64,000 nucleotides of DNA from Nannochloris sp. 'desiccata' (taxonomy: Eukaryota > Chlorophyta > Trebouxiophyceae > Chlorellales > Chlorellaceae), in NCBI GenBank assembly GCA_019044685.2, contig JAGTXX020000010.1:372001-436000 (forward strand). Reading direction: 5' to 3'. Under the pieces are notes generated by a model. The model saw only the letters and a list, made by a program, of their open reading frames with translations. It did no database searches and was not told where the DNA came from. This document shows, piece after piece, positions 1-22,611 of the stretch. How positions within the stretch are numbered: the stretch's first letter is position 1; the number at the start of each line of letters is the position of its first letter. Position numbers and translations under genes: made by a program.

Positions 1-312
1 TATTTTAGATTCCTTACATTAGGTGAGATATAGAGTAGAGGCCAATTAAGTGTTTTTTAATATTTAAGAATGCAATAGGTTTGTATTTGAGTAGTAAGGC
101 GTTGCAGATGATAGAATCAAAGATTGCAATGTTGGTGGGATTTTGTTATTGAAGTGGTACTGTTGGAATCATGGAAGAGTGGTAAGATTTGAAAATAAAA
201 GATGGAAGTAGTACAGAATCGATTTGTTTTTCATGGACTTCAGAAGCAGGCCGCAGCTGCTGTTGCGTCGAAGGTGGTGGTGGTTGGCAGCAGAAGGAAT
301 CAGCGGAGAACT
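1..312. other. AT-rich flank, no gene seen
   Basis: This stretch lies downstream of the first minus-strand gene. It has no open frame of useful length and no recognisable repeat or terminus. It may hold the 3' untranslated region of the primase-like gene. Confidence 0.4.
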
Positions 313-2191
313 TTATGCCTCCAAACTGTTTGGTCGTGAGCGTTTAAATGATGAAGAAGGCTGGCTGTGATCGTGTGATCCCCTGGACCTTGTATCTGCC
401 TTAGAAGGTGGAGTACAAGTGCTTCCAGTGCCGGAGTTGCAGAAGACACGCTCACGCGAATTCCAACAGAAACCTTCAGCGAAGTCAAACACGTGTACAG
501 GTTGTTTATTAAACTTGTAATTAACGTCCAAACGATGTTTAGAACCATAGGTTTCAGGCGGAAAAGCCTTCAAAAAGAAATCCCAGTCTTTGGATAAGTT
601 TCTGTCGACGGCGAGGTCCTTGGTGGATAAGTTAAAGGCGACGCAATACTGCGCACCAGGAGTTTTAGGATGAGTGCAGGCAGTGTATACTGTGCCTGAA
701 GTCAGGCAAACTTCAAACATAAAACCCTGATCATGCTTGGCCAAGGGATTAGCGTGATCACAAACAGGGCAGGTCCCAGCATTCGTTTTGACAACGAGAA
801 CGGGGCCAGCATGGTGCCACTCTTCCATTTTCGCTTCCCAAGAGGTGAGAACCCCGCTGGGATCGACAAGCTTGAGGATACGGTTCAAGTCGGTAAATAA
901 TTGTGGCCATACTCCCCTGCATATTGTAAATAAAAAGGGATATTTTAGTGAGGTTCTAGCCGATACTGGTTTTTGGGGGGAGGGACATCAGAGCGAAACT
1001 TACGTTTTAAAGATTAAGCGTTCTCTACGAGCCAAATCACCTTTCAGCAAGAGATCCATAGCGTCAATACTTGTGCCCTTGGCCTCAATGCACCGTTTAT
1101 TCAGTGCAGCCAAGCTGGATTCGTTGGAAAGACACCAAGAAATCATGTAACGCTTGAAGTTTTCAGGCTTTAGCACGATTTTGTCGTCAGCCTGTATAGA
1201 AATTGTAGTAATATATTAGTTATATCTGGATAGAATGTATTAAACAGTCATCAAATATGAGATGCGCTAGGGATCTTACAGGGAAAGGTCTGGTGAGAGC
1301 ATCAGCGCTGGGTTTATCACCGGAGTGTCTTAGGCCAGTGATGTTACCCAGAAACCCGGGGAGTGGCTGTTTTGCACTGCGACGGTATGCGGTATTGTTC
1401 TTAAATGAGTGGTAGACACCAAATTTGGTCCATTCATGAGTTGGCGCGTTGCGCAGACACTCCTCAGCAAGGATCTGAGCGTCGTGTGGCGAGCGGAAAA
1501 GGCAGTCCACGCCAGTGTCATCTTTCAGGTTAAGGATTATGACCCTAAATGAAGGAATTAATATTGGAAATTATATGATATGTTTTTGTTCTGCAGCGCA
1601 GGTGTAAACTATGTAACGAATACTAAACTCACAGAACAGCTAATGCATTATCGTTCTCGTGGCGGCCAAGGAGGGCTGCTACTCGGGTCGGCTTTATACC
1701 CGCCTGCACGACGGCGCTGTTGATAGCAGGTTCAAGGGTGTTCATCACATTGTCGTAGATGACAGCAGCGGCCTGTTTGTAAGTGCAGTCACCTGCAGAC
1801 GCAGGCATGATTAGAGGGATGTCCAAGGAGATGTAGGCTCTGGAAAAGGCTTTCTCCGATACCACTTGCCACATCTCTTGAACCTGCGAGTAGTCTTCAA
1901 CACCATGAAGGGGAAGAGCCCACGCGGCGAGGTCTGCACGAAAGGAAACAGCGCAGTTTTTTATTTGAGCAGAGGACAAGGCGATCTACAAATGTCAAGA
2001 TATTGACAGGAGAATTTCTTACCTTCGGTCCTGGGGCCCTTATGAGAACGCGAGGGATCCTTCATGGGACGTGGCACAACGCTGTGGACGAGAAAACGCA
2101 TTTCTGCCTTAGCAGATCCGACTCCATTGTTGTGGTGAAAAATCCTGTCTGCAACGGGAGCCATCTTAATCTCGTGAGGAATTTGCTGCAT
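313..2191 (-). CDS. Primase-like (archaeo-eukaryotic primase superfamily, tentative) protein, five exons
   Basis: The exons join as complement(313..916, 1004..1191, 1280..1544, 1633..1933, 2023..2191), giving 508 residues with every phase matching. The start is the first ATG of the first exon that can be seen. The middle contains a Val-Tyr-x-x-x-Asn-x-x-x-Arg-like stretch (FGVYHSFKNNTAYRRSAKQP). It sits after a CLFRSPHDA segment and resembles motif III of the PrimPol encoded at 11.2 kb. A C-terminal Cys cluster (CPVCDH, then VYTACTH) recalls the zinc finger of viral primases. The expected acidic pair of motif I appears only as YISLDIPL, and no clear SxH motif is seen, so catalytic activity is doubtful. 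It lies directly downstream of the helicase on the same strand, which supports a replication role. The family call is inference from these weak matches. Confidence 0.45.
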
Positions 2192-2652
2192 GTTGCCAAG
2201 CCGTGTAGTCAAGTATTATAGAAGAAAAAAAACTTAGACAGAATTGCTGAGGGCAACAAAGAAGATTTGCGGGCAGAAGGTCAACGGTGGCCTGCTGTGT
2301 TATCGAGCAAAGCATTAGTGCTAGCACCAAATTTGGGTCTGCAGGTTCCGCTCTATTTTAAGGTTTTAGAACCCATCTTTAAGATCTATGATGTTTGATA
2401 AATTTTGTTTACAACTTTACATAACGTTTATACCTTCCAAGAAGCTAGATACACAAAGATTTTCTTTCTTAAATTGCATTTGATCTCCTTATTGACCCCT
2501 GCTGGCCAACGCCAATGCCTCACTCAAGATGTCAGCCAAAATCTCTACTTAAAAAAACCATAAATATAAAACAGGCGCCTATTCCTTCCAATTGCTACAA
2601 TCAAAAAAGTTTTTTTATATCCTTGCAACTCTTTTTACTGTCGTCGTCTATC
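2192..2652. other. Spacer between primase-like and helicase genes
   Basis: About 460 bases separate the two minus-strand genes. The sequence is AT-rich with no convincing exon. It should contain the helicase 3' untranslated region and the promoter of the primase-like gene; no specific motif stands out. Confidence 0.4.
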
Positions 2653-5269
2653 TTACTCTCCTTCGGTAACGGTAGTCTCGAGAGTAGCCGGAGCAGACGC
2701 TGGCAAAACACGGCCTGCCGCCTCCTCAGAAGAGGTGAAAGAGTCGGAATCTTGGGAAGTACCAAGACGAGATCTTTTGTTGAAATTCCAAATTTTTTCA
2801 ATGGCCGCAGCCAGTTCTTCGTGTTGGGATTTCAATGAAGAAAAATTAATGACGTACGAAAACACACGTTCGCCATTAAAATACACGGTTTTAAGTGAAA
2901 ACCCTAACCTTTTTGAAGCATCAAAGGTCTCCTTCATTTTGTGTTTCACCAGGAAAGGCATCCGAATAGCCAGTTCTGTTTCCTTCGAGCGTGTTGCGAC
3001 AAATTTCATATTTGCTTTTAGGTCTTCCATGGAACCGACACCTCCCGCTGCAGCTTGTTTGCATAAATCAAGCATCCAAGCGAAAGTCTGTAAGAGAAAT
3101 GAAAACATTTAGAATGGAACAAGTTACCAAACCAGTATATACATTTATCCATGGCCTTACCGTAGAAATCTGTACGACTGGGAATAGTTCTTGTGAGGAA
3201 TTAGGAGAAGAATCAGAGATGGCGGAGTTCAGATCGACAAGTCTACGTACAAAAGCGTCGTACTCTCCGTCGTTGCTAAGCACCCCTTCTGAGCCAACTG
3301 TCTTGAGGAGTGCAGTACGCCCAGCATGATATGCAGCAAGGGTCACGCAAATTCTGGGATGCAGGGAGGGGAACTGGGCGCCGACTGTTTCGATGTTTTC
3401 CTCCATCCATGCATGGCCTTCTTGGCTGAGATAATTTGCTGCACGGATAAGTGCGGAGGTACATTCAGAAGCAGTGTTTTCTTTGGCCTGCAAAAAGAAG
3501 ACGGCAAATTAAGGTTATTTGTATAGCTGAAAGCAGCGCAAGTCTACCCTGTGTAGGAAATTTAAAAACTCACTACCAGATCAGCCATCATCTTCGTTGT
3601 AACCTTGGAGGAAAAGGGCACCAATAAAATACGTTCTCTATCGGGCTCCTCGGTAATTATGAGGTTGAAGTACTTATTGTTGCTAGCGCAAACGAGGTTA
3701 ATGCCGTGCCCTCTAGATCCGTGAGCCAAAGTATGATCCCTCCCCCCGTCGTAAAGGATTCTCAACTGGTCTTGCCGGTCCTTGCCGCCAGGCTTAGGAT
3801 CATTAAGAATAATAGGAATATCTTTAAAATTTTTTGCTATATCCCAAAGACCAGCCTCTGTAGTGCTGTTCGTCATATTAGAGAAGTGTCCCTGAAAGGA
3901 AGAACATAAAGTAGGACAGCGGAAAGTTTAGTACAAAGTCATTATTAGTAATTTTGGTAGCCTTTGGGACGGTCAACATTTATAGAATATTTGCTTACGT
4001 TGTTGTTTCTTATACCAAGCATTCTGGAAGAGAGGATGCAGCTTCGAGTTTTACCGCTGCCGGCGAGCCCGACCAAATTTAAGAACGCCAGTTTGTAACG
4101 AGATTCACCTTCTTCGCGACTGTACCAATGGGCCAGACATAAAATGGTGTTAATTACCATATAGATGGCTGAATACGCGTCTTTCCCATAGGTTTTGAAG
4201 ACCTGGTCAACTGCAAAAAGAAGAAAAAGTGAAAGCCAACGATGCATCAAGATAGTAAAATATAATAATGAGATGGCACTACGCGGAAAAACAGACAGGA
4301 TTTTGACTTACTAATATCCCTTGTCCGTTCCTTGCTATCTTCCTCTGAGACCTGGAAGTTTGCAGGGTCAACAGTTAGTCTGGCTTCTGATGAGTTTTCT
4401 TTTACTTGTTGCTTATCGGAGGAGAAGGAATCAAAAATATTGAAATCCTTTGCGTGGATTGGTGAAGTAGTTTCAAAATCGAAGATACGATCAATTCCAA
4501 GGTAAAGAATTATTTTTGGGAAGCCTGCAAACAAGGTTCAGTGGTGGATAAATAGGTGAGATTGAAAAAAGTATGATCTAAAAAAAACGTTGAAAAAATA
4601 CAGCAGTGGACGTGGCAATTGTGATTAAATAACCCTACTTGGTATCTTCCGGCACACGTATTCACACACTTGAATACGCCCAAAATGCTTAAAACAGAAA
4701 ACTGCATTAGCGACGTCGTAATGGTTCAAACAGCCCAGGTCCGCTTGCCGAAATCCAGTAAAGGTGTTTGGGTTAATGGTGCCACATAAATCGTTTGAAA
4801 TGCGTTTCTGAAAGTATTCAATGACATCCTTGCCAGATGTATGCGAAAATTTCTACATCGCAGAGTATTTGGGCGTTAAGAACAAAAAGTTAGTATCGGA
4901 AACAACCATGAAGCAGGCTGATACCAACATTTGGGAAGGCCTGGGCGTGAAGACTCGTTTCAAAGGCAAATGTTAAAAGGCAATTACCTTATGTTTATCC
5001 ACTGGAACCAGAACTGGATCTGTTTCACCTTGAATGTAAACCTCCCAAATGGTGCCGTGTGTGATGCTCTTCAGATCAACTCCCTCCTCCGACACATTAT
5101 ACATCCACCCAGCAGCACGTGGTACCCAATTGGTAACAGGGGTAATGATGCTGTGACTGTCACCACCAGGTTCTTTGGCCTCTGTCGAAGACTCAATGAC
5201 ACAGCAGTGCTGATAACGAGCATACTTGGGTGCTAGAACGTCTATAATGCGTGTGAACTTTTTGTTCAT
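2653..5269 (-). CDS. DUF927-like P-loop ATPase, probable replicative helicase, seven exons
   Basis: The exons join as complement(2653..3087, 3161..3487, 3574..3891, 3999..4210, 4312..4524, 4639..4852, 4988..5269), giving 666 residues in frame. Introns are 73-135 nt with good donors (GTAAGT, GTGAGT, GTAAGC). A Walker A loop (GLAGSGKT) lies about two thirds into the protein's first 400 residues. It is followed by GHFSNMTNSTTEAG and then IPIILND, the order seen in DUF927 ATPases, which resemble superfamily 3 helicases and often accompany primases in phages and plasmids. The acidic Walker B residue is preceded by Asn rather than a second acid. The open frame extends upstream of the chosen ATG to about 5372, so a further 5' exon is likely; an ATG at 5471 followed by a GTGAAG donor is a candidate. 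The helicase role is inferred from the family. Confidence 0.6.
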
Positions 5270-5824
5270 CTTTGAGGTTGGTAGGAGCACGTCGCAGGGT
5301 TGGTTACCTAATTTTAGATATGCAACGTAAGAAGTGCAGCTTATAATGGCGAGCCCTTACAATGGAGTGCGCTGGACAGTCTTGGGGCGTGAAGATGGTG
5401 GGCTTGCTTCACCTTGGCCAGTCAGCTGCTGCGCCCTGGGTAATTGGCTGCAATGGTTGATGGGCGGTCATCCTATTCCCAGTAGTCTACTTGCATCTAC
5501 AAAATACAGTCTGCAAAATAGTTGCTCCTGATGGGTGTTTAATTGCTCAGAATTTAGGGTTGAACAAAAATCGAAGGCATGAATCCCAAGTTAGATCGTT
5601 AGCGATTCATTCACAGCTCGATCTGGAGTGCGCATGCTGCCGCCGAAAGTTGAATAATGCAAATTATGTTACATAAAAGCATTTTTATAATTATTATTAA
5701 GGTGTGATGAGTAAGGTGAAAGCATAAATATGCTGCTGTGGCGGCAAGCCCAGAGTGTTGTGTTGCCTGTAGACGTCTTATCAAGCTGTCGACGTCTCGG
5801 GCTAGAAACCAAGTGCCACAAACA
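5270..5824. other. Spacer between helicase and RNR genes, possible helicase 5' exon
   Basis: The minus strand contains an ATG at 5471 followed by 19 codons and a GTGAAG donor, which could be the first helicase exon. Joining it in frame would need a microexon near 5365-5395 and a 32-nt intron, so I leave it unannotated. The remainder looks like 3' and 5' untranslated sequence. Confidence 0.35.
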
Positions 5825-7109
5825 TTAGAAATCTGCAGTTAGGGTGAACACGTGCCTGTCAGCTACCTTCCTGGAAGTATCCATGACTCCAGCACGCTGG
5901 TACTCCCCAACCCGTCGCTCAAAGAAATTAGTTTTACCCTGCAGCGATATTTGCTCCATCCAAGGGAAAGGATTGGAGGTACGGTATATTCGTGACACAC
6001 CCAAAGCAATTAACAGCCTGTCAGCAACGAAACGAATGTACTCAGCCATGCTTGCAGCATTAATTCCCAACAAAGCAGTTGGCAACGCTTCTTTGCAGAA
6101 CTTGCATTCCAGGTCAACTGCAGAGGAAACAATGCCGTGAATACTGTGTTCTGACAGTTTACACTCTAGCTTTCTGTACAAAAAGCAAGCAAAGTCGGTA
6201 TGGAGACCCTCATCCCTGCTGATCAGCTCGTTGCTGAAGCAGAGGCCAGGCATAACGCCTCGAGTCCGGAGCCAGAAAACCGCGCAAAACGATCCAGAGA
6301 AGAATATTCCCTCAACACACGCAAATGCCACCAGCCTCTGCGCAAAGCATGCATCTGATTTGATCCACTTCATCGCCCACTGCGATTTTTCGCTGATAAT
6401 GGGGAAATTTTGGGTTGCATGGAACAGCTTAGATCGCTCTTGACTGTCGGTAATGAATGTCTCAATGAGGCGGCCGTACATTTCATTGTGGACAGTTTCG
6501 ATAGCTGATTGGAAGGAATAAAACGCTCTTGCCTCGGGAAGGGTCACATCTGTTGAAAAAAGACAGAAAAGCTTGGTGAGGTAGCTTGGAAATAGAAGCG
6601 GCGGCGGTGTAAAATTGAAAAATATGAATTAACCTCACCCTGCATAAACCTGAATGCCAGATTTTCTAGTACAATGCCATCAGAAACGACAAAAAATGCG
6701 AGCACTGTAGAAATGAAATGCTGTGCCTCAGGTGAAAGGGTTCCCCAATCTCTGATATCTTCACTGAGGTTGACTTCCTCCACCGTCCAGTAGCTAGCCT
6801 GCGCCTTTTTGTAAAATTCAAAAGCTTCTTGGTCGCTGCGGAAGGGGTAGGAAAGGAGAGAAAGATATGTATCATGAATTGAAATCTTGAAAACTAGCAT
6901 AGACAGGACAGGGACGCACCAAACGGGCAGCAGAGTGAAACGATTGTCGGTCTGTTGCAACAAGGGCTTGTCAAGCCCAGCAGCAGCTGTCTGCACCTGC
7001 ACAAAAAAAGTTATACGTTGAGCATCACGTAATATAGATGCAGTGGGGTGTAGAGAGAGGTTGTTTCAGGTATCACCTCTTCATCTCTTGATTCAATGAC
7101 TTGCTCCAT
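5825..7109 (-). CDS. RNR2: Ribonucleoside-diphosphate reductase small subunit (class Ia R2), four exons
   Basis: The exons join as complement(5825..6549, 6639..6835, 6920..6996, 7077..7109), giving 343 residues. The ATG opens an 11-codon first exon. The protein supplies dNTPs with the large subunit by holding the di-iron/tyrosyl radical cofactor. The iron ligands of the family are visible: Asp about 89 (VVSDGIV), Glu120 and His123 with radical Tyr127 (IETVHNEMY), Glu182 (CVEGIFF), and Glu216 and His219 (RDEGLH). The C-terminus ends FTLTADF, the type of tail that docks to the large subunit. It appears fully functional. No large subunit is present in the window. Its place between helicase and MYND genes on the same strand suggests it is cargo of the candidate element, though a displaced host gene is possible. 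Confidence 0.93.
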
Positions 7110-7400
7110 TGTGGATTATTAAATCAATGGGATCCGTGCAGCGTGGCCTTTAGTTGTACTGATCGTTCAGGTTTGGTTGAAAATGACAATGATTAGTAAT
7201 ACGTTGTAGTTACTTACCACGTCTGACTCTATAGTGCTCAGCAAGTCAACTCTCTTTTGGGCCGTTCATTGACCGCTGCAGCGGCTGGCTATGTTGAATC
7301 TTATAGTTACAAGTGCTGTAGATAAAATAGCAATAGTATTATGCGCTTTCAGGTATGTTGTTGCAGCGGATGTAATCTTATATTAAATATAAAAGGCAGA
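7110..7400. other. Spacer upstream of RNR small subunit
   Basis: About 290 bases between RNR and the MYND gene. It should carry the RNR promoter and the 3' end of the MYND transcript. I see no conserved element or open frame. Confidence 0.4.
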
Positions 7401-8903
7401 TTAGTTTCCCTGCAACGCAGATGGAATTTTGGTGCAGTCTGCTTTGTGCCCGAGCCGCCAGCTAGTTTTTTGGCAGGATACACAGCAGTACGCCATTTGC
7501 TTGCACCCTGAGCAAATACCCATATCACGCCCTTCGTCTCCGCAATTTGCACAAATTCGTAACTGAAAGGCAACACGAGTTTTAGCAGAAGTAGCAGCCA
7601 AAGCGGCCCCTGCGTAATCGCAAGCAATGTCTGAGCCAAGAGTTACGGTCAGGTAACTAGCAGGGTACTTGAGTCGGGCAGCTTTCAGATATACCTTTGC
7701 AGCAGTTTCCAGATCAGCTTTGATGGCCTTCCTGTAGAGTGGTGGAATCCAAGGTTTGCAGCTTCTCAAAAACTCCTTCCCGCTGAGCAACATTGCTTCT
7801 ACATCGTCATATATCCATGGAGACAGGCCGATTGCGATTTGTTCTGCATAATTGAACGCAGCATAGGCCATCAAAGCACTATCATTTACTCTTATAGCTT
7901 CGTCCATAATCAGCGGAGCTAGGTCATACTTCACTTGACGGTAAATGGAGTCAGCCAACCTTGTAGCTCGGAGTGAAAGCTCGCTTCCACTGGATTCAGG
8001 GGACAGGGTCGTAGCAGCCAGTTTTGCGGTTACAAGATCCAAAATCTGCGACGTGAATATCCACCAGAAGTAACAAAAAGGCGAAAGGATGGGCCCGTTA
8101 AATACATGCTCAGCAAATTCCTTCAAGTCCTCCCATATTGGAAAAACAGTCTCCTCCTCATTTAAAGCCTGTTGGAAACGAGCTAAGTAGCAAATGCTAA
8201 TCCCGCGTGTCACAGCGTGAAGCTGTCGGAGGGTAAGTCTGCTGTCAAATTCAGCAAGCATCGCAGTTGCACCAGCATCATGAAGCACTTCCCAAATTCT
8301 TCCGCAGACATTCCAGAACACACCGATCCTTCCACAGAACTCAGGGGTAAAATTGTCTTTAAGAAAGCAACTATTATAGTGCGAATATAGAAGTCTACTC
8401 GCCGAGAGAAGAAGTTCTTCCAAAGCAATTGCTGCGTCGTACGCAGAATTTGAATTTGAATACCTCTGAAGTACGCGTGAATCATAGTCCCGATGTTGCA
8501 TTGCCCAGTCCGTTACTCGAGGCCAACGTTTCTTCAAGCCAAGTTGCATCGTAGTGGTTTTGTGAAAGGGAAGGAATTCGATTTCAAGCGCTGCTAAGAC
8601 CGTTTTTAAGGCATCCCTTTGCTCCATGTTTTCAGGAGGGCTGTTTGAACCATTGAAGAGGGAGAGCATCGAAACTTTAAGCTCTAGGGAGCGCACAAGA
8701 TCTTTTTGAGTGTGGGATCGCTGCTCCTCTGGGATTGAAAACAGCGTTCTGCGCCATTTGGGAACGTCAGCGGTGGCCATCTCAGTTAAAAAAAGTTGCT
8801 GTCTTGCAGCAGCAAAATATATTTTAATTAGGCTCCTACGTTGCAGGGATGCTGCGGGTTTGTAAAGACGCGGAGGACATCGTGCCAGAGCTGCCTCTCC
8901 CAT
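7401..8903 (-). CDS. MYND-type zinc finger protein
   Basis: A single open frame of 500 codons from the ATG at 8903; a second ATG at 8780 (459 residues) is also plausible because an AT-rich TATA-like stretch lies just upstream of it. The C-terminus carries a MYND zinc finger: CANCG, then CSGCKQMAYCCVSCQ, then a His-x-x-x-Cys end. The rest is helical with many Leu and Ala residues and no catalytic motif I recognise. MYND fingers bind short proline-rich peptides and act as protein interaction modules. Such proteins are numerous in algae, so this one could be host or cargo. No introns are evident, unlike most neighbours. Confidence 0.75.
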   Translation of the reverse strand: MGEAALARCPPRLYKPAASLQRRSLIKIYFAAARQQLFLTEMATADVPKWRRTLFSIPEEQRSHTQKDLVRSLELKVSMLSLFNGSNSPPENMEQRDALKTVLAALEIEFLPFHKTTTMQLGLKKRWPRVTDWAMQHRDYDSRVLQRYSNSNSAYDAAIALEELLLSASRLLYSHYNSCFLKDNFTPEFCGRIGVFWNVCGRIWEVLHDAGATAMLAEFDSRLTLRQLHAVTRGISICYLARFQQALNEEETVFPIWEDLKEFAEHVFNGPILSPFCYFWWIFTSQILDLVTAKLAATTLSPESSGSELSLRATRLADSIYRQVKYDLAPLIMDEAIRVNDSALMAYAAFNYAEQIAIGLSPWIYDDVEAMLLSGKEFLRSCKPWIPPLYRKAIKADLETAAKVYLKAARLKYPASYLTVTLGSDIACDYAGAALAATSAKTRVAFQLRICANCGDEGRDMGICSGCKQMAYCCVSCQKTSWRLGHKADCTKIPSALQGN

Positions 8904-9586
8904 GTTTGGCCAGTCGGCTCCTTTTTATCCTGCGCCTAATTTAGATGATGGGGGGAGAGCATGTTTCCCAACCAAGTCGCTAATTCGAAGCAGAGATCTC
9001 TCTTGGTACAACTGCGTTGCATGATGTCACAACCAACTGGGTTGCAGGACTTAAAATTGGAGTAACCTTTTTAAGATTAGCCTTCAATTCAACCACAGCA
9101 GCACTGGCAACAGTAGATCTGAATCTGGTCGGGATACCGTAGACAAATTTCTGGTATTTGAATGTAAAATATGTTTAGAACTGCAGCTGAAACTAACTCA
9201 CAAGCATGAAAAAGAAGCAGGGTACCCACCGGTGGAGAGCGCCACCGCTATTGTCGGCATGAAGTTGAAAGCTAGGATAGACAACTAGGTGGCTCGGTGT
9301 TGGCAAATTTTAGAAGATAGTAATCGTGTACAAGGGACCATCGTGTCTGCTTGAGTCCAGCTGGAAAAGAACCGTCGATAACAATCCAAGAGCCCCGGCG
9401 CAGCTGCCCCCGCTGCTGCGTTATTTGTGTTGCCATTATATATTTTACAGTACGTGGCAATGAAGTAATAAAGAATGTAGCGTATAATGTCAAGTAGTAG
9501 CGTATAATGTCAAGTATGCAGATTTCAATCAACACCTTTTAAAGCCACATCGAAAATCCTACAAAGGCCTCTTGGCTCCATCGGCT
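8904..9586. other. Intergenic region with a 20-bp tandem duplication
   Basis: The minus strand holds a small ATG frame of 54 codons (9272-9436) that I cannot confirm as a gene. A 20-bp unit beginning TAGCGTATAATG is repeated in tandem at 9478-9497 and 9498-9516. Otherwise nothing recognisable. Confidence 0.4.
9478..9516. repeat. Tandem duplication of a 20-bp unit
   Basis: Two nearly identical adjacent copies of TAGCGTATAATGTCAAGTAG are visible; the second copy ends one base differently. This is a simple local duplication with no evident function. Confidence 0.8.
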
Positions 9587-10316
9587 TTACAAGCGACGAA
9601 GAATGTAGGCCCAGAAGCTCTGGCTGCTGCCCGTCATCTTGACGCGGATAGGATCGGTGAAAAGTTCCGTACGTGGAAAACAATAGTTTCTCAAGAAGAA
9701 GGCCGGAACGTCAGGTTCACGGCAAGCCCTTTGCACGATTGCAATGCCCACGACGTAAGGACTTCGCCGTAAAAGCTTCCCAACATCACGTTTGTTTTCC
9801 TCATTAAAACCTTCCCAGAAAGAGTACACGTGAGTACAGAAAGGGAGTTTTAAGATATTTTGAACGTCGGCACAAACAGTAGGCCTAATTTTTTCCCTCC
9901 GGTAATTGATCAAGTTCCTTGCAGTAAGCTCTTTGTAGCAGCGGGGAATGAATGCTTTTGCTTTCAGGCATTTTGCGGGATCAATCTCAATACCAAAGGC
10001 TTCGTCAAAGTCAATAGCGAGTAACAACGGACGACCCAACCCTGAGCCAATGTCAGTAAGGCAAGAGGGAATGTCGACGTGGCCAGTGGGAATGCCTCTC
10101 AAAGCCACAAGGGTGGCAGCGACACCGGTAGTGGTGATTGTGCCATAGATCCCTACGGTGCCTTCACCTCCACCCAGCTGATTCTGCAATGAGTACATTA
10201 ATAGTAATATACTACGTAGGAGACAGGTAGAGGTGAAGAGAATGTTAAAAAGTTACCTGGAATCTGTTGAAGATGCAATTAATCCTCCGCAATTCTTTTT
10301 TTGGCACCTGCAACAT
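9587..10316 (-). CDS. DOT1-like class I SAM-dependent methyltransferase, two exons
   Basis: The exons join as complement(9587..10183, 10257..10316), with a 73-nt intron, giving 218 residues. The start is the ATG at 10316. Glycine motif I of class I methyltransferases is clear at about residues 63-70 (TDIGSGLG). It is followed by FGIEID, whose acidic residues should bind the SAM ribose, and by VCADVQN. The spacing resembles the DOT1 histone-lysine methyltransferase core, but the protein is shorter than most and lacks a flanking chromatin domain. The substrate could be histone, another protein or a small molecule. It faces away from the acidic protein gene at 10.5 kb, so the two probably share a divergent promoter. 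Confidence 0.65.
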
Positions 10317-10543
10317 TGCTGGTAATTTTAGTCCACCCACAGGTTTAATAAGGTAGAGTTTAGAGAACAGCTACACTAAAAGAGGGCTGGCAAGCTTGTG
10401 CAGTCAATAATTAGCGGGAGAAGAGGGGCCCAAAAGGGTAGTCAACCTTTGACTAAAAGAAGCAGGGTTTGCATAAAGGAGCGCAGAGCACCACCACGTA
10501 GGGTCGTATTTTTGTTGTTTCAAGCCGCCGAATCTACTGCAAC
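10317..10543. promoter_or_regulatory. Divergent promoter region, methyltransferase / acidic protein
   Basis: About 230 bases separate two divergently transcribed starts (ATG at 10316 on minus, ATG at 10544 on plus). The role is inferred from the arrangement; no specific box is claimed. Confidence 0.4.
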
Positions 10544-11005
10544 ATGAGTATTCTTCACATGAGGAGGAAGCCGGTCATAACTTCGTTGGTACCCGTCGAG
10601 TCAGAAGAAGACATCCATGGCTTGATCGACAACTCTGAAGAACATTCAGACGAAGCTGGTGCTGGGTTGGCAGCTGTAAGGGAGGAGAGCAAAAAATTCT
10701 ACAGAAGAAGCTTGAAAAACGTGGAGAAGGAAAAGGGAACGCTTAAGCGCAAGTGGGGTGCACCTAAAACTGGTGTAAAAAAATTCCTCGATTTGGAGGC
10801 AGGGGAGGAGACCGAGGAGGATGAGGACTCGGACGATGAAAGAAGCGAAATAGAGGATGATGCCATTGTGTCGGCGACCGAAAAACTGGTGGCCGTGGCT
10901 GAAGGTCTTGAAACCGTTGCACAGCTCCTGAAGGATCTTGTGGACGGCGAACCTCCATTTAAGAAGGCCAAGGTTGTTATTGATGATTCCGACGATTCCC
11001 AGTAG
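10544..11005 (+). CDS. Small acidic, nuclear-type protein of unknown function
   Basis: An intronless frame of 153 residues from ATG 10544. The N-terminal half is basic and mixed (a KRKWGAPKTGVKK stretch). The centre is a run of Glu and Asp (EETEEDEDSDDE). A short helical segment follows with Leu/Val heptad character (VAVAEGLETVAQLLKDLV). The end carries PPFKKAKV, a plausible nuclear localisation signal, and an acidic tail. I do not recognise the family. The composition suits a chromatin, DNA-mimic or histone-chaperone-like role, but that is speculation. It sits between the methyltransferase and PrimPol and is co-directional with PrimPol. Confidence 0.6.
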   Translation: MSILHMRRKPVITSLVPVESEEDIHGLIDNSEEHSDEAGAGLAAVREESKKFYRRSLKNVEKEKGTLKRKWGAPKTGVKKFLDLEAGEETEEDEDSDDERSEIEDDAIVSATEKLVAVAEGLETVAQLLKDLVDGEPPFKKAKVVIDDSDDSQ

Positions 11006-11218
11006 AGCTTGGGCGATAACTTAGAAATCCTTTAAATTTGTCCTTTGCACAAAATATTTTCAGATGTAACTAATTAACAAAGCAGCTTTCCACATATCCA
11101 GCTCCCGCCGCCACAACAGGGGAGACGAAAAGATGTTTCAGTATTTTTGATAGGGGGAGCGTTCGGGCTCCGCAGAAAATTTGAAAATATTTCAAATTAT
11201 CTCGTGGAGGTATATAAT

Positions 11219-12191
11219 ATGCAGCCGATGCTGGGTCCCTTTTTCAAATTCGATGAGGCATGCCTAGCTCGGAAGGACACGCACGCAAAAGAAGATTTGT
11301 TGATTTACGGTGTCCAAAAGAATAGAGACCGTCGATGTTTTTATATTGGGGGCGTTGACGACCTTTTCAACAACATTTGCAACGCTCGAACGCTGCAGCG
11401 TTCATTTTATGAACTGGTCGAGTCTGGCCGCCCTTGCCATTTGTATTTTGATATTGAGTTTCCCCTAACTGAAAACTGTTCTTTAGCACCAGAGAAAGTA
11501 GTAGAGAATATAGTATCAGCATCGGGGACGCTCTTAAAAGAAATTCTTCATGCGGACATTGACTTTGAGGCAGTTTTTCAAAAAGATGCTTCAAATTCAA
11601 AGAAGTTTTCAAGGCATGTTTTAGTAAGTGATACAGTCAGGGTCTGACCATAGCGCTCGTACATGTATTTTGATGCTAATCGCCCATTTCTTATTTTTAG
11701 GTCCCAATGCACGGTGCGGTTTTTGCATCCAACGCAGACGTTGGCAGCTTTGTAGATCTTCTAGTAGCCAAACATTCTCCTCAATTCAATATCCTGTGGA
11801 ACGGGGATGTGAGACCTTGTATAGATCAAAGCGTGTATTCGAAAAACAGGCAAATGCGTACGTTGTGGAGCATCAAGGCAGGGGAAACAGACACTTGCAG
11901 AAAATTTGACGTCACACCTGATACATTTCACTGTCCCTTGAAATCAGCTCGCAGGAAGGAAATCTACATTTCATGTGCGGGAGGAAATGAGGAAAAAATT
12001 TTATTTCTTTCATCGCTGATTTGCCCGCCATCTGAGGTCAGAGAGCAGTGGTATTCGAAATCATTGTCGATGCCCGAGCCCCACCGTTTCTTTGAAAAGC
12101 CTTCCCAATATACGTGTATAGCTCCAGATCTTGGCATTAGGTACAACCGTAACAGTTCAGAGATGGTAACTACTACTACTATTACTACTAT

Positions 12192-12222
<31 letters not shown>

Positions 12223-12528
12223 GGAGACAGATTCATCGATGAAGAACTAGCGAGTGGTCTGAACTCCTTTGCTGGGAAGAAGGTGAAAATCTACAATATC
12301 GTTCGTTTAGCCTCAGCTCCACACGAGGTTTTTATTAGTACAAATTGCAGAAAGTGTTTGATGAAAGGCATGGACCACAAAAATAACCACGCCTGGTTCA
12401 AAGCTAATTTACAAACTGGGACTGTTGTGCAAGGGTGCCACGATGCTGCCTGTAAAGGCAAAACTAATTTTGCTTTTTCGCTCAACCAACGGCAGAAGAA
12501 AAATTTTAGGAACCAAGAGGAAAGCTGA
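11219..12528 (+). CDS. PRIMPOL: PrimPol, DNA-directed primase-polymerase, two exons
   Basis: The exons are 11219..11623 and 11701..12528 (410 residues). The 77-nt intron has a GTAAGT donor, a TGCTAAT branch-like sequence and a TTTTTAG acceptor. PrimPol lays primers and extends DNA, restarting forks past lesions. Motif I is HLYFDIEF with catalytic Asp and Glu near residues 78 and 80. Motif II is KFSRH (about 129-133). Motif III is DQSVYSKNRQMR (about 177). The UL52-type zinc finger is present near 354-388, with CLMKGMDHKNNH then GCHDAACK, close to eukaryotic PrimPol. An ACT trinucleotide repeat encodes a Thr-rich tract at about residues 290-308 between core and finger. An in-frame TTG lies upstream at 11147; the first ATG is 11219. 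This is either the host gene or element-borne. Confidence 0.88.
12166..12222 (+). repeat. ACT/ATT trinucleotide microsatellite in PrimPol coding sequence
   Basis: A run of ACT triplets with a few ATT interruptions lies in frame in PrimPol exon 2. It encodes mostly threonine between the catalytic core and the zinc finger, so length changes would keep the frame. It reads as poly-valine on the opposite strand. Confidence 0.9.
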
Positions 12529-12747
12529 TTGGCAGCAAATTTTGTGTGTAACTGAATTTTATGTTTGTTTTACAACGGTGTTATGTAAAGAAAAATGCAT
12601 ATTGTGCCCGGAAAAAAAGAATTTGTTGCAGCTCTTTGGCAAGGGCTAGGGCGCAAAGTAAGAGCGGCAAGCAGATCAGCGTTCCGCTCGTCTGCAGCTG
12701 TGCGTTTCAGCAACTTATTATAAAACACTAATACTAGGAAGAATAAA
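12529..12747. other. Convergent 3' region between PrimPol and KDZ transposase
   Basis: Two genes converge here with about 220 bases between stops. The sequence should hold both polyadenylation regions. No structure is obvious. Confidence 0.4.
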
Positions 12748-15671
12748 TCAAATACTCGGAGCCCTCTGTGAAAGACCAGGCTGCGAAGTAGAAGCAACAA
12801 GCCCAGCGTTCTGCTCCGCTGTAGCCGTGCTCTTCTGCAACTGGATCTGAAGCCATTCATTGTACGTGTTGGCAATGTCCCAAAGCAAGAACTCTGCTTT
12901 AATAGGAGTCATGCTACGTGTTAAGACGTTGAACCTGTTCATCCATTTGGATGCGAGCTCTTGACTCTCGGTATTGCTCTTGCGCAAGACGTCGAATTTG
13001 GGGAGCCCAAGGTGATTGTGGCAGTGCTCGCTAATAGTTCTAGTTCCTTTAGTATACAGGGTACAAGAAGGATGGTTGTGACCTGGATCAGCATGAAACG
13101 TGTCGACGGCTATTTTATTAGCGAGTATCTCATGAACAACGTAAGCTGCAGGGTACTTGGAGCTATTATCTTTAACGTGCTTCTCCAGCTTGCATCCCAA
13201 ATCATAGACTAGAAACTGTACGTGCTTTTTCATATCTTCAAGAGAAGATTGAGGACGCAGCATGCTCCAAATACATTCTACAGCCTGCAAGCGGCGACAA
13301 AACAGATTAATAACGGAAAAAACAGTGACGGCGGAAGAGGCAGTTCCCTCCTCACCTGAAGTATGCCTTCGTGCTTTAAATACATTGGAAGCAAGTTCAA
13401 AATAATACCACATGGGCGTACAGCAATCATCCAACCCTTAGTAGTGTCCAAATATTGAGTCTTGAACCCAGATGGGACGGAATCCACAGCAGCATTGGAT
13501 CCACTGGCTCCAGGATCTTCAACTATGTCCTGCGGGGTATTGGGATCACGCTTTCTTTTATTGTCCATCTTTTTCACTGTTTTATCTACAAAAGCTTTCA
13601 ACTCCTTCTCAATATGGTCGATGTGATCTGCATCGAAGTCGACTCCATCTTTCTCTGCGTCAGCGGCACTGTAGCTTCTTTTGAACTGAAATTTATCGTC
13701 AATAACAGTCTCCTGGGGTTGCGAACCCTGTGAGGCAGCCTCATTAGCAGTGGAAGATCTTCTCAATTGAGATGCGCCGGACTGAGATGTCTGTAGTACG
13801 TTTTCTAACATTCCATTACTTTTTAAGCGGTTTAGGATATTTCTGCAGTGGGAAAATATAGGTTGAGGTGACAATTAAATGGCGCTCATGGTTGAAAATG
13901 AAAGGGCAGTGCAGTAAAGTGCAGTTACCGTGGATTTGAGATGCCGTTTTCGGTGCCCCATTTAGTAAGGGCCGGGAGTGTCATTGCTTCCTCCCTCTCC
14001 TGCAGCAGCAGGAGTCTACGTTAAAGCTGTCAACATGTTTGGTAAAAAAGCTGTATGTCACTTACGTCAAGCATTTCTAGATATTTACGTTCGTCTTCCG
14101 ACCTATCTTGATAAGCCTGCGTTAAAAGAAAACGAAAATTACAAAAAAAGTAGAAAACTCAAAAAAGAGCGGTGGCCTTGACACTCACCTTGAGGGAGGC
14201 CTGTTGACGAGGAAGTAATCCATGATGCTTGGTGACAGCCTCTTCCTGCACAAACGACTCAAGAATATTTAATTACCCACATTACAAAGGGGTGTAAGGA
14301 AATAGGTACTTACCAATAATCCACCGCCCCTGTGCTGTTCGCAATATCTAGAGGTAAACTCATACTGGTTGCCAGCGTGAGGGCGATGAATACATCCAGG
14401 ATATGCACACTTGCCCATCACGTTTTTTGCATTGCCATCCATCATTACTGCGCGAGCAGCGCACCCTGATTCTTTAGCCGCAGAGCAACAATGGGGAAGC
14501 CATTTTTTTGGAAATTCAACGCGCCACAATGCACACGCTTCAGTTAGCTTTGCAGCAACGTTGTTGTTCCCAAGATCTTGTAAATAAAAATTTGGGCGTG
14601 TTGAATAGAACTCCGTCAGCCGCCATAGCACTAAAGCTTCTTTGAAACGGTCATCGTTCAAAGCCCACAACGGGGGAGCGTCTCCCGCGACACCGGGAAT
14701 TGCACGTTTCTTGTTGGAAGCCATGGCAGCGAACCCTTTCCACCTGCAAACTACAACAAATAGTATCATATTAATCCACCTCCTAAGAAGCTACTAAACA
14801 ACACCGAATCAAAATAATACTTGCCTCTTTTCAGCATCCGCGGCATGGAGGTGGTTATAGGTATCGCAGTAACCTTGAAACGTAGGCTTTAAGCTATGAG
14901 CAACGGAGCACCATGCATGGCGGAGAAGTTTTACCTGAAATGCAGTTTCTGGTGTCGCCATAAAGTAGGCAGCATCTTTGTGTCTGATTGTAGCAGTAAA
15001 TTTACTAGCTCCGTCGTCGACAGTGCAGGTTGCGCGATCTACAAAACGGTTGTAGCCACATCTTGAACAAGTGCCCGAGATGGAAGTTGCAGGCATTGGT
15101 CCGTGTATGGTGTAAGCAACGACCTTGGCCCCTCTACTATTCGCTTTCGTGTCAGTACTGCCACAATTGTATGGGCACACTTTTTCAGGGACGAGGTAGA
15201 GCGGAGTAACTATTTCCTCCCTCTTTTCTTTGACTTCTATCGGCGCAGGGCAGCCTTCAGGGAGCATCAGCACATCGCCAGGGGGGGATAACCTGCATGG
15301 CAACAGACATCTTTGTAAGTAGAAGCACTTGCAGAACATTGCCGGTGTGCAGATTATTCGTTTGCAAAAGCGGGGGAATACTATTATTTTTAACAGCACC
15401 TTTGTATCATCTGAAATGCAGCAGCATCCGCTTCGAGGGTTTTTATTAAGCAATTTAAGATCGGAATATCTTCTGCTTCTAATGAGGGTGAAATGTGTCC
15501 GTGGTGCTGCTTCTGTCCTACTTTGACCGAGACAAGGCCTCTGCAGAGAACAGAGGTTGTGCTTGGTTGAGTAGCCGTATACCAAACTTTTAGAATTTCT
15601 CCAATTTTTTTACTTCTAGCTGGACAATTTGTAGGAATTGAAGACATGGCGCGCAAAAGCAAAGAGGCCAT
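12748..15671 (-). CDS. KDZ-superfamily transposase with CxC zinc cluster, eight exons, apparently intact
   Basis: The exons join as complement(12748..13284, 13356..13842, 13929..13999, 14066..14116, 14189..14245, 14314..14743, 14825..15292, 15400..15671), giving 790 residues in frame. It would catalyse DNA cut-and-paste with an RNase H-fold. The N-terminal third carries the cysteine cluster of KDZ-associated domains: KVCPYNCGS, YTIHGPMPA, then SGTCSRCGYN. A second block has VMMDGNAKNVMGKCAYPGC and a later CEQH. The C-terminal part has VYDLGCKLEKHV, DTFHADPGHNH, and then NTESQELASKWMNRFN. That order (Asp, Asp-x-Phe-His, and a late Glu) is the KDZ catalytic layout as I know it. Intron 2 uses a GC-AG donor (GCAAGT). 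No stop or frameshift breaks the gene, so the element may be recently active. Confidence 0.8.
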
Positions 15672-16150
15672 TAGCAAATCAAGCGTAATGATGCCGGGGG
15701 TAGGGGGTCGCTGGTCTACAGCGCTAGAGGTCTCATATCCTGCTAGGAGAGAATATACACAGTTTTTGGGAACAATTATTTATTGAATAAATGAAGGCTT
15801 ATGGCTGCAAGAGGGAATAAGATTAATATAAAGCGATATACGTTTTTTTTTTATGTGAAGCGATACCTGTGGAACTCATTCTGAATAGGACTAGGGTGGG
15901 AGGGAAAATAACCGTGCAGGTCAATCTAGCTTTGAAAATTATGTATTTTTGTGTTACACAGTGGCTATGTTTATTGGTAATCTAAACGCGGCGCGGAAAA
16001 TACTCAACCAGTAGACTCCCTTTTCAAGGCAACCAGTAGTCTCCCTTTTCAAGGCAACGCTGCAAATACTTTCAGGTGCGACTTGCTGTAGAGGTAAGAG
16101 ACACAGTTGCTGTTGATTCGTGCAGGAAAACGTCTACCTTCTTTCCTACA
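15672..16150. other. Flank upstream of KDZ transposase with a 25-bp tandem repeat
   Basis: This should hold the transposase promoter. It contains T- and A-rich sequence and a 25-bp tandem duplication at 16005-16054. No terminal inverted repeat could be recognised. Confidence 0.4.
16005..16054. repeat. 25-bp tandem duplication
   Basis: Two adjacent copies of a 25-bp unit beginning CAACCAGTAG and ending TTTTCAAGG differ at one base. They lie near the presumed right side of the candidate element. Short subterminal repeats are common transposase binding sites, but only two copies are seen. Confidence 0.8.
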
Positions 16151-16998
16151 TCATTGTCCCAACCACTGCGCCAACCATGCAGAAACTGCTTGTTCGCTAC
16201 CGACAGCTTCACTCGGCAGCCTCCCCGTCTCGTAGATAAATTCTACAAGCAGAGGAATGTGCGCCCTGTTTTCCTCATCTGCTCTCCTGAGACTTCCATA
16301 CAAATCGTTACTCAGGATGGCCTCTACAAAACTGCATGGTCTTATATGGTTTCTAAAATATTGCGTAAGCTGCATCTGAAGGTGATCAGGGATGAGTCTT
16401 GCCCGCCCATTAAAATCAACGGTTTCAAAAGGCATCAGGGCTGGGCAAAGATGGGTACCACAAAAGAGAGTAAATATAAAAAAGGATTGAGGTCGTAAAC
16501 CGGTGGGCTGTCAAGAAAAAGGAGGAGCAGAGGCTCTTCGACCAGTGGGTGCGACTATGAAACGGTGGGCCAGCAATTTTTTGCCTTTGCAAATACACTG
16601 CACCTCCCAAAAACACAATAGCGGAAGGGGACCTGTACTAGAATGCCCGAAGACGGTATTTTTAGATCCAGAGGTTTTGAAGAATGGAAGACCGGTGCAG
16701 CTGCAGTTCAAATTTATTTGAGAGGAGAAACCTGCTGCTCAGCGTCACGGCAACTGCAAATAAATATATATCCTTTACCTACTAAGTCGTGGATGCTACG
16801 GGGGATAGTGCTAACGAATGCTTCTACAAAAGCAATATGGAAGTTGCTGCATGTCTGTGTGAAGTAATCTCCAGGCAGGCTATGACGTAACCGGAGGCAG
16901 GTAGGCAACCCGAGCTTGCGGGCCACTCTCCATCCCAAGTTAGGCAGGCCTATCTGCTGTAAAACGTTGGTATAGAAGCTGCAACTCAACCCTAACAC
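16151..16998 (-). CDS. Fragmentary multi-exon gene with a phage-like C-terminal domain
   Basis: The last exon (16151..16440) encodes about 95 residues after TTTGCCCAG. It includes LIPDHLQMQLTQYF, SFVEAILSNDL, RADEENRAHIPLLVEF and GSEQAVSAWL. This pattern (IPxHxxxxLxxY, GSFxxAxLxNDL, ADxxN, GS..W) is one I associate with small uncharacterised phage proteins; that is recollection, not a search. Candidate upstream exons are 16501..16603 and 16633..16700, which join in frame, though the donors GTTTAC and GTCCCC are weak. A further block at about 16790-16998 looks coding but does not join in phase. The gene may be decayed or its structure misread. Position suggests it is another part of the foreign region. 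Confidence 0.3.
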
Positions 16999-17645
16999 GA
17001 AACAGAAAATCTTTGGGCCGTTGCTGCTCGAGTGAGGGCATGGCTTACTGCTTCTTCAGGTGCTATTGAAGGACACCTAAGCCGGCGGAATCCATGGCTT
17101 CAAACATCTAGTTTTTTGGGGGGGGAAGACGAAGATTATCCCGTCGTTCTTGAGTTCTAATACTTAATTAAAGGTATTCTAGCGGGGGGAATGGGTGAAA
17201 CGATGTTCCGAAAGCTGGCTCTGTTTAAATAATGCGAGAATTGGCAGCAGGAGTTTCGAAAGGTGCCCGTTTGCTCCGCGCCTTCGGGCGGAATTCGTTA
17301 CATATATTATTTACATTAATATAATGTCGAGTGGGAACGATTATTACCTTTGTAGAGGTGTCGAGGTTGATTTTAATTTTTATAATGGGGCGTCCCGGGT
17401 CGAACATTCAAATACCCTGTGACATGGCGCCCTCACCCGCCAGAGGGGCCAAAATAAAGCGCCAAAAATGGGGAGGATCAAATCCTTATTCGAAGCCCTA
17501 TTCTCTCTCTTTTAACCGCATACCTAGTCATTCTATAAATATCAAACAGCATGTGGGCGGCGCGTGGGGCGGACCACTTCAATGATCACTTCACAACTTA
17601 ATTCTCTTTGTCAGTTGTAATTTTTAAATTTTTTTATAAGTTTAA
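16999..17645. other. Intergenic region upstream of RAD18
   Basis: No supported gene. It contains a run of G at about 17116 and a small CGCC-TTCG-GGCG hairpin near 17278. The last 200 bases before 17646 probably include the RAD18 promoter and 5' untranslated region. Confidence 0.4.
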
Positions 17646-19717
17646 ATGGCAGATCTAGGAGAATTCCCTTCGCGAGGAGAAAGCACACATGTTCTTAGAC
17701 TACTAGATGCTGCCGCACGATGCACTATTTGCTATTCCATTTTTGACGCTCCTCTGTCTCTCCGAGGCTGCGGCCACAGCTGTAAGCAAACACTATTTTC
17801 CTCTATTTTCCTAGATTAATTAATCCATTCAAGTACTGTAATTCACTTGAAAACACATCAACAGTCTGCATAACGTATTGTAATTTTAATTTTGCAGTCT
17901 GTGCGGCCTGTATTAGACAAAATTTAGGATTTCAAGAAAAAATGGGAGACCCTCGATGTCCTTCTTGCAGAGCTCCTTGTGATGCTCGCGATTTACAGCC
18001 TAATGTCTCCCTTAGGGAGCTTGCCGACAAATATAATGCAGCCCGTAGCGAGGTTATACGGCTCGTAGTACAAGAACGAGAGCATGACAAAATTGGCACA
18101 AGAAGTGCTGCCGTTGAGGCTGAAGCAGCCCTTGTTGGGAAGAAAGCAAGAAAAGAAGACCCAGTTGTAGGTAAAAATTCAATGAATGCTCCGCGTAGAT
18201 CTTCAAGACGGTCAGCTGCAAAAGAAGTTGAAGCAGCACAACAAACGGAAACCGGTTTTGCTGCTGCTAGAGACGACACCCAGCCTGGACCTAGTACACG
18301 CAGCACGCGCAACAGGGCAAAGCCGAAGGGAAAGTCACCACGCCAAACAAATAAACTTAAGAAAGAGGAGGTAGATATAGACAATGATAACTGTATTGCG
18401 ATTCTATCAGACGATGAGGCAGAGGAAGAAAAAATAAAGGAGGAAGAAAGAAGCGTTGACCATGATGAGGACTTTGACTTTACAATGGAAGGTGAAGAAG
18501 AAGGAAATGAAGAGGACGAAGATGATGAAGAATTTAGTCCATCCCCACCTTTGAAAAAGCAACGTAATTTACAGCAAAAACAACCTTCAGCTGGGGCAGC
18601 AGCTGGCCGCGGTATTACGCCTGCAGGTGCTGCCAGCACCGCTCAAGGCTTTGTCCCCTGTCCAATTTGTGCAAAATCCGTCCCTTCTTTCTATATAAAT
18701 TCCCACGTAGATGCCTGCCTCAATTCTGGTGGGGGGCTTGCTAGTGGGAGCGGTGGCTTTGGGTCTGAGGAGCTTGACCCTGGTGTTGCAACGGATAAGC
18801 ACAACGCTACATTGCCTTTAGTCCCTCCCCCCGCTCCTGCTCAATTAGCAGCGGCAAGAATAACAGAAAATAAATCGAATCTACGGGCAAGCAAACCTCC
18901 TTCTCCTCGTCAATGTCCTCATATCCCTTTAGCTGTACCCCCGTGCCTGGTCCCGGCGTTAGCTTCAGATAAAATTATTCGAGCGGCATTAAAAAAGTAT
19001 AATTTACCCTCGGATGGTAAAAAATCAGAAATGTTTGATAGATATAGCCAATTTAGAACTGCCGTATTGACTGCAAATGATAGACAAGAACGAACGAGTT
19101 ATAATAAGATTGCTCAGAAAATGGCTGCACAGGAACGGCAACGTGCTGCTGCTGCGTTGCTTGGTGGCGGTGGTGCGAAGAGCGCAGTTGGAGGGGGTTT
19201 AAGACAAGGAAATGGAACCCATAAACAATCGTCTGCTCTAAATAATAATAGTAAAAATAAGAACAACGAAAAGCGTGTTTGTGGTGATCCTACGGTGCTT
19301 CAAGGGGATAGCTTTGAGGAGTTGATTGCTGTGACAAAGGCCAGAGACGCAGCACGAAGGGCAGCACGCGCAGCTACTGCTGCTTCGGAAGAAGAGGAGA
19401 GAGAAGCTGTTGCTGCTGCTGTTAGGAAAGATGAGGAGCAAGCAGTGGGTGTGCTTGTTACAGCAGCAGAAGCTGTAGAAGAAAAGGAAGACCGTTTCTA
19501 TACGTTACAGGAACAAGGCTCTCCTGAGGTGTCTCTGTCTGTTCCCGCGTATACTAGTTCTCCTATTTATCATCCATTTTCACCTAAAGAAGAAGAAGAA
19601 GAAAAAGAACCTTCTGTTGCTGCTGCTGTGCCCAACACTCGAGAAGAGATGATTGCTGCAGAGGTATGTCAAGCACACAAAGTAGGTCTACTAGATTCTG
19701 ATGATGATAACTGGTAG
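17646..19717 (+). CDS. RAD18: RAD18-like E3 ubiquitin ligase, two exons
   Basis: The exons are 17646..17781 and 17898..19717 (651 residues; 116-nt intron with GTAAGC donor). RAD18 with RAD6 monoubiquitinates PCNA at stalled replication forks. An N-terminal RING finger is split by the intron (CTIC, CGHS, then CAACI, CPSCR). A long acidic and Ser-rich linker follows. The UBZ4-type finger is at about residue 280 (PCPICAKSVPSFYINSHVDAC). A SAP domain follows at about residues 385-415 (IRAALKKYNLPSDGKKSEMFDRY). The order RING, UBZ, SAP is that of RAD18. The rest is low complexity, Ala- and Glu-rich. It is the last normal gene before the rearranged block, and a repeated spacer copy begins 16 bases after its stop. 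Confidence 0.85.
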
Positions 19718-19901
19718 CTCGCTCGCTCTCTAGCTTGCTGGAATTTTAATTTTATCAATTTTAAAGCGCAAAGTTGCTGTGTGTTTACAAAAGGTCTTCG
19801 TTTACTTTTCTTAAAATGTAATATCTGTATGAACACACTTAAGAAAACACATTTCTGAATGCATCTTATATCTATCATAGTATAATCCTCAAGGAATTTC
19901 C

Positions 19902-22073: not shown

Positions 22074-22142
22074 ACCCTCAACAAAGCCACAACCAATTAC
22101 CTTTTATAAATATAATTTAGGCAGCAACCGTAACCGTACAAA

Positions 22143-22610
22143 ATGCCAAAAACGCGCAGGACTCAAAATAGGGCTAACCAAAATGGATCTCCCCACACCC
22201 CGGCGACAAACTCTGCCTCACCTACAGAGCTTCACGGTGTAGTGAACAACCATCAGTCTACCCGACTCTATCCAAGACAAGAGAGGTTACTCCCTTCCTA
22301 TACAAGTGGCGAACCTTTCCTTCCACCCCATACCTTCACTACCATCCAAGAAATCCATAGATTCCCCTATTTTGCAAATCGCTATGTCCCTCCTCGATTA
22401 GCTACAGAACAAGAGGACATAGTGTTCCATGGACCTTACTGGGCAGATTCTCCTGCACACATAGTGGCAAAGCTCTACCAAGCCACGCAACTATTGGAGA
22501 ATTTTATCAACGGTCATGGAAACCTGCATGATGTATTACGTGCTTTAACTCTTGTTCGGCGTCAGCGCCGCAACATCGCACATGTTTTAAATGACTACTA
22601 TTTGCATTAA
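22143..22610 (+). pseudogene. Gag-like or accessory frame downstream of the chromodomain
   Basis: A 155-codon frame starts 70 bases after the pol stop. It opens with a basic, Asn/Pro-rich segment (MPKTRRTQNRANQNG) and continues with FHGPYWADSPAHIVAKLYQATQLLENF. It could be the start of gag from a tandem or circular template, since piece B then resumes in reverse transcriptase. It could instead be an extra 3' frame. I cannot assign a domain. An inverted near-identical copy lies at 22950-23391. Confidence 0.5.
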
Positions 22611-22611
22611 C

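Follow-up and report, generated by a model that had tools for sequence, protein, structure and literature searches.

In the green alga Nannochloris sp. 'desiccata', a mobile unit of 18.7 kb unites genes for a primase-polymerase of the PrimPol type and for a ribonucleotide reductase small subunit (R2) with the gene of a KDZ-like transposase candidate. Most of it lies in the window, i.e., the whole 64,000-nucleotide stretch analysed here, which corresponds to bases 372001-436000 of contig C10; positions given without a contig name are those of the window. We attribute a probability of about 0.68 to the view that the element is a giant cut-and-paste DNA transposon, KDZ-like, whose accessory genes would aid transposition. 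Two insertions with identical ends and separate 8-bp duplications are present in the genome, and all the genes described below lie in the larger one. Matches to both the KDZ and the CxC5 families fall in a single open gene, and the PrimPol and R2 proteins can be identified from their sequences. Cut-and-paste DNA transposons are thought to depend on their hosts for all DNA synthesis. With a duplication-bounded element that encodes a primase-polymerase and an R2 protein, it becomes testable whether such transposons contribute to their own copying, and the element might represent a step between transposons and replicons.

Extent and copies of the mobile unit

The C10 copy extends from 370722 to 389437, i.e., over 18,716 bases. 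Its left end is located 1279 bases to the left of window base 1 and its right end at position 17437, the part inside the window thus being 1-17437. The initial annotation had placed the unit at 313-15671, missing both ends. The search for further copies that it recommended did reveal a second copy on contig C12 when the own genome, 21.55 Mb in 18 contigs, was searched. Comparison of the flanks showed that both copies start with the same 5' terminus, GGCTGCACCACG, and finish with the same 3' terminus, CGCCCTCACC; the left-end sequence is found at these two sites only in the genome. The C10 copy has an 8-bp target-site duplication, GCCAGAGG, whose left occurrence is at C10:370714-370721 and whose right occurrence, read in the letters of the window, is at 17439-17446, after a single additional C (17438). 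The C12 copy is bordered on either side by AAAATTTT, an 8-bp target duplication of its own. Each copy therefore has a duplication of the length found with KDZ superfamily transposons. Two 8-base stretches at set positions would agree by chance in approximately 2 of 100,000 cases, so that the two pairs of duplications are not coincidental. The proposal that these genes belong together is thus borne out: they form one mobile unit with 8-bp duplications.

Directly after the left end is a subterminal minisatellite, in which the motif GCTGCACCGCAGGNACGGTGGACTGG is repeated 11 times in the C10 array with 0 mismatches. Single copies of this motif with one or two mismatches are present at C6:2530158, C10:172165, C13:237806 and C10:465351, in other repeats that all have CTAGTCCAATGC in front of it. 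We considered these four sites as further copies of the element and discarded them, as they lie in other repeats and the left end itself occurs at two places only. The array motif could be a regulatory or terminal sequence common to several repeats.

The C12 copy (1516499-1527476), detected by a DNA search with positions 1-17500 as the query, is collinear with the C10 copy, with 29 mismatches over 6299 aligned bp of the shared parts (99.5% identity). It lacks positions 1-9684, replaced by approximately 2 kb of unrelated DNA, and breaks off within the methyltransferase gene, of which 172 of the 203 residues remain. Positions 10523-11734, which hold a small acidic open reading frame (ORF) as well as the first part of the PrimPol gene, and positions 13697-13935 are also missing, and the transposase gene is interrupted by a 1.35-kb insertion with the 6-base repeat ACGTAA. 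Because the shared parts are 99.5% identical and the break falls inside the methyltransferase gene, we read the C12 copy as a recent, broken deletion derivative of a longer copy. Where the left block is missing, the C12 DNA contains a 369-residue ORF in which inspection by eye suggests a reverse transcriptase (YIDD); this assignment was not retained, as the ORF has no Pfam match.

On contig C2, a fold-back element of approximately 1.7 kb brings together pieces of gene B, the transposase gene and the right end of the unit. The stretch at 16241-16450 (reverse strand), a possible upstream exon, is conserved in it at 94%, while its gene B pieces are identical at 76-83% of bases and its transposase piece at 59% of 42 residues. 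The joining of these fragments suggests that a diverged relative once held gene B and the transposase gene together, and hence that their association predates the present insertion. The two gene B fragments give dN/dS ratios of 0.56 (48 codons) and 0.67 (63 codons), a sample too small to be used as an argument. Altogether, there are at least two copies plus fragments in 21.5 Mb. Transposase proteins of both copy kinds are also found on contigs of 857,648, 1,629,954 and 1,630,158 bases, and other assemblies of the species therefore carry copies. As the second copy is little diverged, the family appears to have been active not long ago.

Predicted proteins of the element

Gene models come from a splice search, with retained introns of about 60-130 bases; the genes of the MYND-finger and methyltransferase-like proteins and the acidic ORF were treated as single exons. 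Of the 24 ORFs in the element with 120 residues or more, 18 were included in the Pfam scan, so that short exons could be missed. The protein searches require shared 5-residue words and can miss distant relatives; for genes A and B the best 8000 candidates were scored. Within this scope, relatives of gene A, gene B and the transposase at E-values up to 1 were confined to Nannochloris, with one, one and five proteins retrieved, respectively.

The putative transposase is encoded on the reverse strand at 12748-15671, as 780 residues in 8 exons with no internal stop in the model, and comprises a CxC5-like cluster. Two weak, independent matches, to KDZ and to CxC5, in one open gene, together with the 8-bp duplication, make KDZ membership likely. 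The initial annotation had spoken of an apparently intact KDZ transposase, which is partly confirmed: the 8-exon model is open, and both family matches always fall short of the curated Pfam cut-offs. Candidate D-D-E residues can be proposed by eye in MMDGNAKN, VYDLGC and ISEHC, the third of which is in a different column in a relative on contig C8 (C8:66960-67880, L060). The latter is identical to the transposase at 48% and 32-35% in two stretches and perhaps represents another family of this kind.

On the forward strand, the gene at 11219-12528 (exons 11219-11623 and 11701-12528) is securely assigned by homology and motifs to the PrimPol-type primase-polymerases. Its product matches the PDB entry 7jk1, 'DNA-directed primase/polymerase protein', with an E-value of 5.6e-12; Pfam primase models match below their cut-offs only (DNA_primase_S, E 0.0028). 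The motifs YFDIEF, KFSRH and IDQSVYSKNR, which correspond to the DxE, SRH and VYSKNR signatures of archaeo-eukaryotic primases, align with those of two other PrimPol-like genes of the genome, on contigs C11 and C3, to which the protein is 31-32% identical. Its C terminus resembles a zinc knuckle by eye.

The initial annotation counted two primase-type genes, and gene A, which would be the second, yields a faint hint and no proof. This gene (313-2191, reverse strand) is modelled as 5 exons separated by introns of 87-89 nt and encodes 508 residues; an annotated hypothetical protein (P0001, Ndes2526B_g05097) is 100% identical to it across 98% of the model. We found no Pfam match at E-values up to 1, no PDB match at E-values up to 10, and a single PHROG match (E 0.0058) to a family of unknown function. 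A profile of three PrimPol members aligns to gene A with 2.2 bits, a score that 3 of 500 shuffles equal or surpass. With single queries, 22 shuffles scored higher for the PrimPol of the element and 13 for the C3 gene, and the C11 gene gave no match. ISLDIP, GRH and GVYHSFKNN resemble PrimPol motifs by eye. A single-sequence AlphaFold model (pLDDT 34.5) was not used.

As for gene B, described initially as a DUF927-like helicase, what stands is the P-loop, GLAGSGKT, in a plausible context. The gene lies on the reverse strand at about 2653-5339; its 3' exons are annotated in another assembly (P0002, Ndes2437B_g00632), and the model is uncertain towards its 5' end, which entered the Pfam scan as an ORF only. 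For the 403-residue core, neither DUF927 nor helicase models matched at E-values up to 1, and there is no PDB or PHROG match; a match to AraC_binding (E 0.17) is at chance level and was set aside. By inference only, gene B may encode a helicase.

The R2 assignment is secure on sequence grounds: the gene at 5825-7109 (reverse strand) encodes approximately 343 residues that match Pfam PF00268 in two stretches (E 8.8e-70 and 2.5e-19), in agreement with the earlier prediction. The protein is 64.7% and 59.6% identical to the two other R2 proteins found in the genome, between which the identity is 69.2%; given these values, it is not a recent copy of either. The MYND-finger protein predicted earlier was recovered as well, as a single exon of 500 residues at 7401-8903 (reverse strand; zf-MYND, PF01753, E 2.1e-8). 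It has a relative with 38% identity on contig C11 and weaker ones elsewhere in the genome. The methyltransferase-like protein (9587-10198, reverse strand, 203 residues) was more difficult to confirm: an S-adenosylmethionine-binding motif (DIGSGLG...GIEID) is visible by eye, and there is no Pfam match and no PDB match better than E 0.5. The acidic ORF (10544-11005, forward strand), taken from the ORF list, has no Pfam match. Two relatives of the methyltransferase-like protein, with equal scores and 36% identity, are located at C15:55374 and C15:1209135 and perhaps belong to another mobile family.

A probable giant transposon and alternative explanations

The element probably moves by cut-and-paste, with the KDZ-like transposase as the best candidate for moving the whole unit. 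PrimPol, the P-loop protein and R2 are predicted to have accessory functions that would help complete the synthesis linked to transposition, by priming across gaps or lesions, repairing gaps and supplying nucleotides outside S phase. The methyltransferase-like and MYND proteins may counter silencing. The copy number would then rise through host replication and repair, without an independent replication cycle. According to the parts of the reports available (PMC12730594, PMC12810828), Zisupton and one fungal KDZ element both have target duplications of 8 bp, which supports this view.

A number of observations weigh against it. hAT elements likewise make 8-bp duplications, as stated in the available part of one of these reports (PMC12730594). 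The transposase matches the KDZ model (PF18758) with E-values of 0.002-0.025 and 14.7-18.3 bits for a cut-off of 26.6, and CxC5 with E-values of 6.3e-4 to 2.3e-3 and at best 20.3 bits for a cut-off of 26.9. When the genome was searched with the KDZ model at an E-value of 0.001, the transposase gene was not among the matches, and a profile built from three of the genome's canonical KDZ proteins gave no alignment to the transposase with hhalign. The C8 relative was read across 921 bases only, and its conserved exon has no Pfam match. The initial annotation had advised a search for terminal inverted repeats and target-site duplications; the latter were present at shared ends, and no terminal inverted repeat was found between the left 400 and the right 600 bases. 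That comparison began 3 bases inside the left end, and its best local match was a 10-base stretch within the left array, with none at the ends. The full gene set is present in one copy only here, the C12 copy lacking gene A, gene B, R2 and the MYND gene, and the own-genome search revealed no second gene A and gene B only as the C2 fragments.

The absence of this left block from the C12 copy might also mean that the element is composite, with a smaller KDZ-like transposon made of the transposase, PrimPol and methyltransferase genes, and a block of genes A, B, R2 and MYND inserted or captured later. The two cellular-type relatives of R2 in the genome would fit such a capture. Nevertheless, the C12 copy is cut within the methyltransferase gene, which indicates that its state is derived, and the C2 derivative ties gene B to the transposase and right-end pieces. 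We regard a composite origin as unlikely. Alternatively, the element might be a self-replicating, capsid-less KDZ-like transposon, as initially suggested: the PrimPol and a P-loop helicase of the element itself would prime and unwind an excised circle, the element's R2 would supply the deoxynucleotides, and the copies would re-insert through the KDZ-like transposase with 8-bp duplications. The identification of PrimPol and R2, the presence of the P-loop protein and the faint PrimPol-like signal in gene A are in line with this scenario, and as no capsid match was found the replicon would be intracellular. However, a single PrimPol is verified, neither the helicase nor the second primase is, and neither the scanned ORFs nor the spliced models showed a replicative-family DNA polymerase, so that the element would have to rely on a polymerase of the host to complete a replication cycle. 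Two copies plus fragments in 21.5 Mb, both lower bounds, are few for such a replicon. Self-replication is thus possible but unsupported, and we consider it improbable.

The initial annotation also envisaged an integrated virus, considered here as the remnant of a DNA virus that has lost its capsid genes. Large DNA viruses commonly encode a primase, an ATPase and R2 together. Yet, the models of genes A, B, R2, PrimPol and transposase contain short introns, the ORFs scanned have no capsid, packaging or viral polymerase match, and the two insertions are bounded by 8-bp duplications. Scans of viral_contigs with four element proteins, which detect close relatives only, identified no viral relative; in one of them ten stretches matched the pattern, none of which encoded a relative. 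A viral origin of this sort is highly improbable.

Known elements and neighbouring repeats

The transposon interpretation places the element among giant, gene-carrying KDZ elements, which are already known. In the available part of a report on algae, KDZ elements of Ectocarpus reach 30.3 kb, many giant families have additional genes, and a 31.7-kb KDZ element of Chlamydomonas is stated to be active (PMC12477816). The present element resembles those of Ectocarpus in its large size, likely KDZ type and additional genes. It differs from them by its lack of inverted repeats and its divergent transposase; their accessory genes are mostly of unknown function, no PrimPol or R2 being described in that part of the report (PMC12477816). 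Fungal elements, namely KDZ1-3 of Cryptococcus and the TET/JBP-bearing Dileera, also share features with it, such as target duplications of 8 bp (4-8 bp for KDZ2 and KDZ3) and, in some of them, an accessory gene, which is TET/JBP there; in KDZ1-3 the KDZ core is accompanied by a CxC domain (PMC12810828, PMC12730594), as would be the case here. In contrast, KDZ1-3 carry inverted repeats of 139-241 bp, and the available parts of these reports mention no primase for KDZ1-3 or Dileera (PMC12810828, PMC12730594).

Associations of transposition and replication genes exist elsewhere. Polinton/Maverick elements are DNA transposons of protists with replication genes, including those for a protein-primed polymerase B, a retroviral-type integrase and capsid proteins. 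The present element is similar in being a DNA transposon with replication genes; that polymerase, integrase and capsid set has no Pfam match in its scanned ORFs or spliced models. The viral part of Teratorn is a herpesvirus. Teratorn, a piggyBac element of 180 kb, is described in the available part of one source as a fusion of a transposase with replication-type genes (PMC10175614), a combination that the present element shares, without a virus genome being seen in it. In our literature search, no primase turned up in any KDZ or Zisupton element; what appears new is the presence of a primase-polymerase in a giant KDZ-like element.

The genome also has a canonical KDZ family, with matches above the Pfam cut-off and equal scores at C6:1587661, C10:305362, C15:1706550 and C15:1709926, and more diverged ones at C2:366363 and C15:2037866. 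Near-perfect inverted repeats are found at C10:299260-310941, C2:558740-564763 and positions 21883-23651, with arms of about 0.7-5 kb that are 99.5-100% identical. A canonical KDZ gene spans the inner side of the first one, with KDZ matches in both orientations. These repeats may be assembly artefacts or fold-back elements. Downstream of the element is a Ty3-type retrotransposon with a chromodomain (19881-22073). Closer to it, a RING/SAP protein that is RAD18-like by eye is encoded at about 17646-19717 (SAP, E 9.7e-4, below the cut-off), the element being inserted approximately 200 bases upstream of the likely start of this gene.

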